64,000 nucleotides of DNA from Streptomyces sp. MMBL 11-1 (GTDB lineage Bacteria > Actinomycetota > Actinomycetes > Streptomycetales > Streptomycetaceae). Positions 1,347 to 6,235 of this stretch are shown piece by piece. Under the pieces are notes generated by a model. It saw only the letters and a program-made list of their open reading frames with translations, did not search any database and was not told where the DNA came from. The stretch covers positions 7,567,001-7,631,000 of the forward strand of contig NZ_CP117709.1 of NCBI RefSeq assembly GCF_028622875.1, written 5' to 3'. The stretch's first letter is position 1. Each line of letters opens with the position of its first letter. Made by a program: the position numbers and the translations under genes.

Positions 1347-2117
1347 ATGGACCTTCGTACCACCGTTGAGCGCGCTCAACGACTCAAGCAACTGCACGCC
1401 GAGCACAGGCCCCTCGTGCTGCCTACCGTCTGGGACGTCTGGTCCGCGCGGACAGCAGCCGACGCCGGGTTCCCCGCTCTGACGGTCGGCAGCCACCCGC
1501 TCGCCGACTCCCGGGGGGCCGCGGACCAGGAGGGGCAGACCTTCGAGGAGGTGCTCGCCGCCGTCCGCCCGATCATCGCGGCGGTCGACGTCCCCGTCTC
1601 CGTGGACCTGGAGGCCGGCTACGGACAGAAGCCCGCGGATCTCGTCGCCGGTCTCGTCGATGTCGGCGGCGTGGGTCTCAACATCGAGGACACCGTCCAC
1701 TCGGAGGGCGGACGCGTGCGCAGCACGCAGGAGCACGCGAACTACGTCGCCGGCCTGCGCGCGGCGGCCGACGACGTGGGGGTCCCGGTCTGGATCAACG
1801 GGCGCACCGACCTGTTCCTGTACGCGGAAGACGCTTCCGCCGTTCTCGAAGAGGCGATCGAGCGACTGCGGGCCCTGGAGCAGGCGGGCGCCGACAGCGT
1901 CTACCCGGTGCGTATCCAGGACAACGACGAGCTGCTCGCGGCAGTGACGGCCGCCGTCTCCGTACCGGTGAACTCCACGGCCCACCCGGTCAAGCACGAT
2001 CTTGAGCGCTTCCGCCGCCTCGGCGTCGGCCGGATCACCTGCGGCCCGCTGCTGCAACTGGCGATGACGGACGCGATGAAGGGCATGCTGGAGCCCTGGG
2101 CTCCCCGGACGTCCTAG
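1347..2117 (+). CDS. Isocitrate lyase / PEP mutase family protein
   Basis: The 256-aa product has the TIM-barrel layout of the ICL/PEP mutase superfamily. It shows a substrate-loop region LPTVWDVWSA near the N-terminus, the metal-binding block VDLEAGYG at about residues 85-92, NIEDT, and NGRTDLFL. The KKCGH active-site motif of true isocitrate lyases is absent, so it is more likely a carboxyphosphonoenolpyruvate mutase-like, methylisocitrate lyase-like or oxaloacetate-decarboxylase-like enzyme acting on a C3-C4 acid. The ATG at 1347 is chosen over the GTG at 1338 because the G-rich ribosome binding site at 1327-1333 is better spaced. Its stop codon TAG is part of the CTAG target of the adjacent insertion sequence, so the gene was left intact. 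Confidence 0.85.
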   Translation: MDLRTTVERAQRLKQLHAEHRPLVLPTVWDVWSARTAADAGFPALTVGSHPLADSRGAADQEGQTFEEVLAAVRPIIAAVDVPVSVDLEAGYGQKPADLVAGLVDVGGVGLNIEDTVHSEGGRVRSTQEHANYVAGLRAAADDVGVPVWINGRTDLFLYAEDASAVLEEAIERLRALEQAGADSVYPVRIQDNDELLAAVTAAVSVPVNSTAHPVKHDLERFRRLGVGRITCGPLLQLAMTDAMKGMLEPWAPRTS

Positions 2118-2188
2118 AGCGTGTCTCTTTGATGCGCTGAGGAGCGTGGCGCCTGACCGAACTGAGTGTTGGACAAGTGCTCCGCCGG

Positions 2189-2791
2189 TCAGGCGTCCCA
2201 GGCGCGAGGACGGTTCAGTTCTTCCCACTCGGGGCGGAGTAGCGAGAACACGGCGAGGTCGTGGCGGCGGCCGCGGTGGAGGCAGGCGGCGCGGCTGATC
2301 CCTTCCTGGGTGAAGCCGGACTTGGCAAGGACGGCGAGCGCGGGGGCGTTGGCGGTGTGCGTTTCCGCCGTGAGCCGGAACATGGGGAGTTCACCGAAGG
2401 CTAGGTCCACCACGGCGTCGAGGGCGGCGGTGCCGTGGCCGTGTCCTCGATGTCGAGCAGCGAGCATCAGCTCGACTTGGGCTGTGCCATTGACGATGTT
2501 CTGGCTGATCAGGGCGACGTAGCCGACAGGGGTGCCGCCGGGAAGGAGGATGAGGAAGTCGTCTCGATCGTCGTCCTCGACGTCGCGCTCGATGCGCTCG
2601 CGCACGGCGGTGAGTGAGCGTGGCCAGATACCTATTTGGTGGGCGGCTACGGGGTCGGATCTCCAGCTGTGCATGAGCTCGGCGTCGTCTATGTCGAGCG
2701 CTGCGAGGCCGACGGTCTTGGCCCGCCAGGAAAGCTCCCTTTCGCCCTCTGCGTCATGCTCGTCGCCTGCAATCCTGATGTTTTCGATCAT
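2189..2791 (-). CDS. GNAT family N-acetyltransferase (IS passenger)
   Basis: The 200-aa product resembles RimJ/RimL-type GNAT enzymes. It has the acetyl-CoA pyrophosphate-binding loop RHRGHGHGTAALDAV at about residues 133-147, a preceding beta-strand QVELMLA, and a C-terminal FTQEGISRAA block typical of the family. Members acetylate protein N-termini or small molecules, including aminoglycoside- or peptide-type antibiotics; the substrate here cannot be told. It lies between the transposase and the left terminal repeat of the insertion sequence, transcribed with the transposase, so it is likely mobile cargo. The start is the ATG at 2791. Confidence 0.8.
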   Translation of the reverse strand: MIENIRIAGDEHDAEGERELSWRAKTVGLAALDIDDAELMHSWRSDPVAAHQIGIWPRSLTAVRERIERDVEDDDRDDFLILLPGGTPVGYVALISQNIVNGTAQVELMLAARHRGHGHGTAALDAVVDLAFGELPMFRLTAETHTANAPALAVLAKSGFTQEGISRAACLHRGRRHDLAVFSLLRPEWEELNRPRAWDA

Positions 2792-2864
2792 AGGCGGATG
2801 CTATGGGTGTCTTCGGGCCCGGACCACCGCGTTTCTCCGCTCAGTGGCGCGTCGTCATGCCTGG

Positions 2865-3323
2865 TCAGCGACGAGCCCAGATAAGGATGGCAGCCAGGTG
2901 GAGTGCAGCCTGATACGCGATGGCAAGCTTGTCGGTTCGCATGGCCAGGCCGCGCCACTGCTTGAGTCGGGCGATGCACCGTTCAACGGTGTTGCGCTCC
3001 TTGTATGTCTCGGCGTCGAAGCCAGGCGGGCGACCTCCGGCGCGGCCTCGGCGTAGGCGGTGGCCGACCTGGTCCGCGGGCTGCGGAATGATGGCCCGGA
3101 TACCTCGGCAACGAAGATGCCCACGGATCGCGCGGGAAGAATAGGCGCGATCAGCGAGGACAACCGTAGGCCGGGTTCTTGGTCTGCCGACCCCGCTTCG
3201 TGGAATCCGGATTCCGGCCATGACCGCCTCGAAGGCCGGCGCGTCACCGGCCTGGCCCGCAGTGACATGGATAGACAGAGGTCGTGCCCGGCTGTCACTG
3301 GCCAGGTGAACCTTCGTGCTCAA
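2865..3323 (-). CDS. IS5-family transposase, C-terminal part (orfB)
   Basis: The frame encodes the DDE-catalytic half: STKVHLASD near the start, the second Asp in VVLADRAYSS, and the glutamate in KERNTVERCIARLKQWRG near the end. It overlaps orfA by 4 bp (TTGA). The frame is open upstream of the TTG, reading through ...DHALGRSRGG, the usual IS427-group sequence. The active protein is therefore probably the orfA-orfB fusion made by a -1 ribosomal slip at the A4G5 run (minus strand of 3377-3385). The first catalytic Asp lies in orfA (VSVDST). Confidence 0.85.
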   Translation of the reverse strand: MSTKVHLASDSRARPLSIHVTAGQAGDAPAFEAVMAGIRIPRSGVGRPRTRPTVVLADRAYSSRAIRGHLRCRGIRAIIPQPADQVGHRLRRGRAGGRPPGFDAETYKERNTVERCIARLKQWRGLAMRTDKLAIAYQAALHLAAILIWARR

Positions 3324-3724
3324 GCCACCACGGGAGCGTCCGAGGGCGTGGTCCTCGGGCTCAGACCGATCCGGCGCCCCCTTTTCCTGGCTCCGGCGGA
3401 ATGTTGGTGCGCCCGGCAGACGGTGGAGTCCACCGAGACCGTCCAGCCGACCTCGTCATCGGCATCCGCCACGGCAAGTAACGCCGTCAGGACCCGTGAC
3501 CAGGTTCCGTCCATGGCCCACCTGATCAGGCGCTTGTGCGCGGTCTGAAAGGGTCCGAGCTCTTCTGGCAGGTCGCGCCAAGGTGAGCAGGTGCGGTACT
3601 TCCACGCGATGGCTTCCAGGGTCCGGCGGTGGTCGGCCCACCGTCGTCCGCGGACCGGATCGGCTGGTATCAGCGGCTCGATCCGGTCCCACATCGCATC
3701 GGTGATCACCAGCCGGACAGACAC
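3320..3724 (-). CDS. IS5-family transposase, N-terminal part (orfA)
   Basis: The 134-aa frame carries the DUF4096-type helix-turn-helix region (ITDAMWDRIEPLIP, WKYRTCSPWRDLPE) and the first DDE aspartate in VSVDSTVCRAHQHSAG. After the slippery run at 3377-3385 it continues in the wrong frame to a TGA. A -1 shift there joins it to GAPDRSEPEDHALGR and the orfB catalytic core, giving a full transposase of about 286 residues, the normal length for the group. Both catalytic halves look intact, so the element may still be active. Confidence 0.85.
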   Translation of the reverse strand: MSVRLVITDAMWDRIEPLIPADPVRGRRWADHRRTLEAIAWKYRTCSPWRDLPEELGPFQTAHKRLIRWAMDGTWSRVLTALLAVADADDEVGWTVSVDSTVCRAHQHSAGARKRGRRIGLSPRTTPSDAPVVA

Positions 3725-3791
3725 ACCCGATCAACTGATCAACCCATCAAAGAGACACGCTCTAGGTGATCCAGGGGGGGGCCAAAGGGCT

Positions 3792-3947: not shown

Positions 3948-5306
<1,359 letters not shown>

Positions 5307-5353
5307 GTGCTGCCTTTCGGTCGAGGGCGACGGACGGCTCCCGCCGGTGGGGG

Positions 5354-6235
5354 TCACTTCACGGCTCCCGCGGTGAGGCCGGCGACCAGATAGCGCTGGA
5401 GGAGCAGGAACCCGACGACGATCGGGACACTGACGACGAGCGACGCGGCCATGACCTGGTTCCAGTACACGTCGTTCTGCGTGGCGTAACCCTGCAGGCC
5501 GACGGAGAGGGTCCGGGTGGCGTCGTTCGTCATGACGGAGGCGAAGAGCACTTCGCCCCAGGCCGTCATGAAGGAGTAGACGGACACGGCGACGATCCCG
5601 GGCACGGCGGCCGGCACGACGACCTGGAAGAGGGCGCGGACGGGTCCGCACCCGTCGACCAGGGCCGCTTCGTCCAGGTCCCTGGGGATGGAGTCGAAGT
5701 ACCCGATCAGCATCCAGATGGAGAACGGCAGCGAGAACGTGAGGTACGTGAGGATGAGCCCGCCGCGCGAGCCGTACAGGGCGACGCCGGTGCTGTTGCC
5801 GATGTTGACGAAGATGAGGAACAGCGGGAGCAGGAAGAGGATCCCGGGGAACATCTGTGTGGACAGCACCGTGACGGTGAAGAGCCTCTTGCCCCGGAAC
5901 CGGTAGCGGCTCACCGCGTAGGCGGAGAACACCGCGATCGTCACCGACAGCACCGTCGCCGAGCCCGCCACGATCAGCGAGTTGACGAAGTACTTGGCGA
6001 GCGGGACGGTCTCCCAGATGTCGAAGTACGGCCGGATCGTCAGCGTGGACGGGAACCACTGGAACTTCCCCGACACGTCCTGGAGCGGCTTCAGCGAGCT
6101 GCTGACCATCACGTAGACGGGCAGCAGGACGAAGCCGGCGAGCAGGGTCAGGACGATGCGGCGGGTCCAGAGGAAGGACTGCGGCGCGGCCATCGGCGAG
6201 CGGGTGGTGCGGGTCGGCCGCGTGAGGCTAGACAT
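5354..6235 (-). CDS. Sugar ABC transporter permease (MalG/CebG-like)
   Basis: The 293-aa membrane protein has about six transmembrane helices and the inner-membrane permease signature [20 protein letters not shown] (EAA...G...P) that contacts the ATPase. Its N-terminus has a cytoplasmic stretch before the first helix ([20 protein letters not shown]), as in MalG-type subunits. It overlaps the upstream permease gene by 8 bp and precedes the GH1 gene, which points to oligosaccharide import. No ATPase is encoded nearby. Streptomyces sugar importers of this type share the ATPase MsiK, encoded elsewhere. Confidence 0.92.

Follow-up and report, generated by a model that had tools for sequence, protein, structure and literature searches.

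The window, that is, the whole 64-kb stretch of DNA analysed here, contains an insertion sequence (IS) lodged between a PEP-mutase-like gene and a glycoside hydrolase family 1 gene (Table 1). Inside its ends lie a transposase, divided over two reading frames, and a gene for a GNAT acetyltransferase. The terminal repeat on the cargo side reads AGCGTGTCTCTTTGATG. Because the flanking CTAG is itself palindromic, the inverted repeat also extends to 21 bp. The target duplication is either CTAG (4 bp) or its core TA; a single copy fits both, with the palindrome masking 2 versus 4 bp. The mutase frame stays open up to a TAG stop that falls within the CTAG, so that insertion preserved the stop codon of this gene, as a sequence-only reading of the locus had proposed.

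Table 1. Features of the element and its surroundings, numbered from the first base of the window
Feature	Position	Strand	Basis or remark
Flanking PEP-mutase-like gene, stop inside the target	1347..2117	+	PF13714
CTAG target copy that includes the TAG stop codon of the mutase gene upstream	2114..2117	.	sequence
Whole IS element, 1644 bp, transposase and GNAT on the same strand	2118..3761	-	perfect 17-bp ends; copy L126
Terminal inverted repeat, cargo (3') side	2118..2134	-	transposase stop ~0.75 kb away
Cargo GNAT acetyltransferase, 200 aa	2189..2791	-	PF13302
TAGCAT, possible -10 box 6 nt ahead of the GNAT start	2798..2803	-	also in homologues, both resident and on elements
Transposase second frame, 152 aa, DDE_Tnp_1	2865..3323	-	NF033580
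Transposase first frame, 134 aa, DUF4096 N-terminal domain	3320..3724	-	NF033580
AAAAGGGGG run, putative -1 frameshift site	3377..3385	-	would join both frames into 286 aa
Terminal inverted repeat, transposase 5' side	3745..3761	-	exact reverse complement of 2118-2134
CTAG target copy, opposite side	3762..3765	.	CTAG on both sides in 39/48 two-ended cargo copies
Flanking glycoside hydrolase family 1 gene	3948..5354	-	PF00232

Both transposase frames exceed the cut-off of the IS5-family model NF033580 (113.7 and 121.7 bits versus 110), and Pfam matches are to PF01609 and PF13340. Relatives listed in PLSDB are annotated as "IS5 family transposase" with an 860-nt coding sequence, which is the same span as 3724-2865. 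A -1 join at AAAAGGGGG gives a product free of stops, and a ribosomal -1 shift at this run would be the route by which the frames are joined. Judged by these models and by its layout, the transposase is of the IS5 family and of the IS427 type, the group label being based on the two frames and on comparison with PMC3281130.

The sequence-only reading had further held that perfect repeats and CTAG enclose both genes with no inner repeat between them. This is borne out: a scan of the window allowing up to 4 substitutions found the 17-bp end at the two outer sites alone, and of the 19 bases behind the transposase stop only 7 agree with the right end found in plain relatives, which carry a transposase without cargo. 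One could still suppose that an ordinary IS happens to lie beside a resident GNAT gene and that a stray end-like sequence mimics enclosure. Resident homologues without element ends are indeed common, since many of the 32 genomes with a GNAT match among 392 have the gene only, at 69-78% identity. However, the far end is perfect over 17 bp, whereas matches to the 3' end with up to 5 mismatches in 19 occurred at 3 sites per 309,712 bases of non-element DNA, part of which flanks other copies and may include genuine IS ends. The ends are therefore not a product of chance.

Copies at other loci also contradict a one-off arrangement. Among 392 genomes of the genus, 68 contained a match to the transposase (E <= 1e-140) and 32 a match to the GNAT part (E <= 1e-25), and close relatives of the GNAT at 11 named loci (L126-L136) were compared with the window. 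A full-length copy in Kitasatospora sp. SolWspMP-SS2h (L126; 93.5% over 1652 positions) has the same junctions, both ends and CTAG, with one mismatch in its 3' end; its second transposase frame is broken, and its flanks have no similarity to those of the window at E 1e-6. A further copy with these ends thus exists at another locus and supports the proposal of a single unit with the GNAT inside. Two further loci (L129, L131) keep both ends around a damaged transposase, with deletions or a 1.3-kb interruption, the latter being an insertion that splits the transposase in Streptomyces sp. NBC_00154 (L131). The 5' end is retained in L127, where most of the transposase is gone, and the 3' end in L130, L132 and L135; end remnants thus accompany the gene at several loci. 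L128 and L133 have transposase remnants without ends, and neither a transposase remnant nor an end was seen in L134 and L136. Set beside these 11 loci, the window is alone in having transposase frames without a break. With one intact copy and remnants in other genomes, the GNAT version may be mobile. The source genome itself has one full copy and, elsewhere (L002, G000:C1:4403970-4404226), a transposase remnant of 257 bp at 74%.

The neighbourhood is also found unoccupied. With the two flanks joined across the element as a query against 246 genomes of the genus, three genomes (G165, G217 and G242; loci L142, L143 and L145) were found to have the mutase gene followed by the glucosidase gene with no GNAT in between, so the gene was not met at this locus without the element, which would have spoken against cargo. 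The mutase end in all three reads ..TCCTAGAG.. with a single CTAG, but the DNA behind the stop differs from that in the window; the proposed comparison of the empty site thus holds for the adjacency of the flanking genes, while the exact pre-insertion sequence was not seen. Together with the full-length copy elsewhere, these three Streptomyces genomes identify the GNAT gene as genuine cargo, and we regard a chance juxtaposition of IS and resident gene as exceedingly improbable. In G105, ~2 kb of other DNA separates the mutase and glucosidase genes. In G154 (L138), the stretch immediately after this mutase gene looks like a further IS5-type transposase, and the site may thus attract insertions more than once.

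The window element belongs to a larger set of cargo carriers. From the genomes, the GNAT loci and a plasmid sample (18 of 215 plasmid records opened), we assembled a catalogue of 84 transposase copies that reach the 3' part of the gene; it covers copies of at least 73% identity that are not cut before position 860. Both ends were found in 48 cargo copies, 39 of which are bordered by CTAG at each end (Table 1). Cargos with a 3' end fall into 20 types, 12 of them present in at least two copies. Those with a Pfam name or another label are GNAT1 (the window), GNAT2, barstar (PF01337), DUF6221, Imm1-like, SUKH-like, an L7/L12 C-terminal domain, MerR with a GyrI-like domain, a LysE translocator and an M35 peptidase. 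The other ten (HTH191, P90, P71, P78, P79, P83, P88, P89, P152 and P167) have no Pfam match over the cut-off, and P71, P79 and P89, which contain short frames only, may not be genes. An initial label of P90 (110 aa) as YCII was dropped for lack of a Pfam match over the cut-off. The 127-aa Imm1-like cargo falls below the Pfam Imm1 cut-off (14.2 versus 22.4 bits, E 0.078) and keeps its label because several of its UniRef homologues are named Imm1. SUKH in L100 is marginally below its cut-off (25.3 versus 25.4), with a relative in L166 annotated as SMI1/KNR4; SUKH_b (L015, L109) stands outside the 20 types because it has no convincing 3' end, although it scores over the Pfam cut-off.

Cargo orientation varies: GNAT1 and DUF6221 run along the transposase direction, and barstar, Imm1-like, GNAT2 and LysE run opposite to it. 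In the 18 plasmid regions, the annotations beside the IS5 transposase include barstar in five, DUF6221 in two, and SMI1/KNR4 and GNAT in one each. When the 300-bp flanks of the catalogued cargo copies were compared, shared flank DNA turned up in just two same-cargo pairs, L154/L169 (over 26 bp) and L074/L159 (over 300 bp). Some surroundings are distinctive in themselves. In G427 (L064), the 300-bp flanks of a DUF6221 element are identical in opposite orientation, which places the element in the middle of an inverted repeat. On plasmid pSM17A of Streptomyces sp. SM17 (L164), a P78 element adjoins a gene annotated as a polymorphic toxin with a HINT domain. On three plasmids (L154, L157, L169), an IS701-family transposase gene lies within ~0.3 kb of the cargo side of a barstar element.

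Phylogeny places the cargo carriers together. In a rooted tree built from 68 copies, with 3 further rows as outgroup, they form a clade of 52 rows (support 100/99), of which 51 have a recognisable cargo class (the exception is L106) and 47 a 3' end, none being found in the other five. An earlier tree of 56 copies agrees, with a cargo clade of 36 rows that included one plain row, L095; this copy, truncated at the 5' end, was not part of the rooted tree. The plain and cargo states require 2 changes on the tree. The plain sister of the clade, L102, is a long branch, and L092, L105 and two basal plain groups have no resolved placement. Mapping all 23 labels takes 28 changes, where the minimum is 22 and the mean after shuffling is 52.5; thus, cargo tracks the transposase tree with some changes.

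Several cargos (GNAT2, P78, SUKH_a, DUF6221 and barstar) each occur on more than one branch, which may reflect exchange between elements or repeated capture. Comparison of transposase with cargo identity within pairs gave a mixed answer: 88% versus 92% for GNAT2, 83% versus 90% for P78, 84% versus 85% for SUKH_a, and 81% versus 69% for the barstar pair L153/L087. No sharp breakpoint of the kind expected from a cargo swap emerged; the cargo was clearly closer than the transposase in 2 of 7 pairs and not in the other five.

How the cargo slot arose can be approached from the ends. A plain-type right end lies directly behind the transposase stop in 19 of the 84 copies, including L090, where it is a vestige ahead of the cargo. 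Plain relatives end there, as do L023, L025 and L029 of the outgroup; the clade of the window element does not. The objection anticipated by the sequence-only reading, that other copies might end just after the transposase, therefore applies to the former and not to the latter. Traces of the old right end persist between stop and cargo in four copies of two cargo types, matching at 16 of 19 positions in L090, 13 in L124 and 11 in L075 and L097; random positions reach at least 11 of 19 at a rate of 0.0014 per site, and 52 copies were examined. The window element, at 7 of 19, has no such trace. These traces suggest that a farther right end was adopted and that the inner end decayed.

An alternative account of this origin is that two IS copies once bracketed a gene and that the second was reduced to its outer end, so that the cargo was carried passively rather than by a specialised carrier. 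An element of this origin could still move as one unit afterwards. Cargo 3' ends do mix right-end and left-end features, and that of the window has the left-end form (ACACGCTCTAG), as do 25% of them at that position, where 73% carry G like plain right ends. Most, however, are right-type and do not resemble the left end of an inverted neighbour. Repeated accidents would hardly yield 52 copies in one clade with 20 or more cargos, and the cargo part of the window showed no remnant of a second transposase. In one copy, L125 (G292), the transposase stop is followed by a plain-type end and, 1.19 kb beyond it, by a perfect end of the cargo type; such an arrangement would suit a composite origin, and L125 is possibly a capture intermediate or an adjacent inverted copy. 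Overall, we consider reduction of a second IS copy an unlikely origin, albeit one to be taken seriously.

We favor, with high confidence, the view that the window holds an IS5-family, IS427-type transporter IS with a built-in GNAT cargo, and that it is a member of a derived Streptomyces multi-cargo clade. Its transposase would be assembled from the two frames by a -1 shift and would cleave the DNA at the two outermost 17-bp ends, inserting the whole 1.64-kb unit into CTAG with the GNAT gene moving along, apparently driven by its own promoter. In the history that the ends suggest, a second, outer right end would have replaced the ancestral one behind the transposase stop, and the slot between the stop and the new end would then have been filled by many different genes, perhaps in part via exchange between elements.

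The cargo gene itself appears to be maintained. Its reading frame is open in all 11 sequences compared (the window and L126-L135), and the median dN/dS over their 55 pairs is 0.219 (range 0.143-0.309); L132 was read from a start upstream of its match, and L136 was excluded because its match ends at residue 149. By this measure, purifying selection acts on the GNAT, also at loci with a decayed transposase. The TAGCAT ahead of the start may mark a leaderless promoter that travels with the gene, in line with the usual layout of such promoters. The distant GNATs at 69-78% share the gene and the upstream TAGCAT box and have no element ends, which fits a resident gene captured together with its promoter.

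The function of the cargo bears on a further proposal of the sequence-only reading, that a mobile acetyltransferase could spread modification or resistance traits. Weak family-level resemblance of the GNAT to the models for TlmB and AAC(6') would speak for a role of the IS in spreading drug resistance or self-protection. All seven NCBIfam matches nevertheless fall far below their cut-offs, with TlmB at 33.7 bits against 625, and homologues are widely resident in Streptomyces. Homologues number 320, and the names of the 120 listed are mostly GNAT or RimJ/RimL-like. Spread of a resistance gene is thus very unlikely. The earlier account accordingly stands for the single unit with its GNAT and the preserved stop codon, and loses the resistance trait. 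That the GNAT is only one among many interchangeable cargos was not visible to it.

More tentatively, we suggest that one Streptomycetaceae IS427-type lineage has evolved into a modular carrier whose one slot lies behind the transposase, swapping its cargo and spreading small protective genes, chiefly orphan immunity genes; we hold this to be possible but somewhat doubtful. Under it, the orphan immunity cargos (barstar, Imm1-like and SUKH) might shield their hosts from the toxins of neighbours, a role for which the evidence is suggestive only. The background in 61 genomes comprises 100 barstar, 5 Imm1 and 287 SMI1_KNR4 matches, or ~6.4 per genome. If 7000-8000 genes per genome are assumed, the post hoc probability of three immunity types among 20 is ~6e-7 to 9e-7; it is ~1e-4 to 2e-4, likewise post hoc, for two of 20 with the Imm1-like type omitted, as PF14430 misses the background of that type.

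IS elements are usually taken to carry a transposase only. If the cargo slot is indeed clade-wide, many "orphan" genes beside Streptomyces IS5-type transposases would be mobile cargo. Annotation would then be overlooking such cargo; several of the coding sequences concerned are labelled hypothetical. The plain and cargo copies of one lineage would offer a route to study the step from IS to gene carrier. The immunity-gene theme, if true, would tie IS movement to bacterial competition.

It is useful to compare the window element with known systems. We found no description of a multi-cargo IS427-type clade in the open-licence full-text literature, which covers few subscription papers, and the accessible parts of PMC11092175 and PMC3281130 describe no cargo in elements of this type. 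According to the latter, Paracoccus elements of the IS427 group measure 832-865 bp and have two overlapping frames with a frameshift motif and duplications of 2 bp, with one of 4 bp. The window element resembles the IS5 family and its IS427 group in its NF033580 transposase, its two overlapping frames, its small ends and its CTAG/TA-type target. It differs from the usual ~0.8- to 0.9-kb, transposase-only members in measuring 1644 bp, with the GNAT between stop and right end, which argues against a plain IS427 element and not against the family of the transposase. Composite transposons and MITE-type derivatives could account for the origin of the second outer end, but the unit in the window has one transposase and one pair of ends. 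The closest parallel is the transporter IS (tIS), defined in PMC9330008 and PMC3129680 as an IS derivative with passenger genes; MTnSag1/tISSag10 and tISCpe8 are examples named in PMC5704250. Like these, the window element holds between its two ends a passenger gene unrelated to transposition. Unlike them, it belongs to a whole IS427-type clade with at least 20 exchangeable cargos, for which plain sister lineages are available. The element is thus ordinary in kind, since transporter ISs are known, and unusual in extent, as one member of a clade with many cargos.
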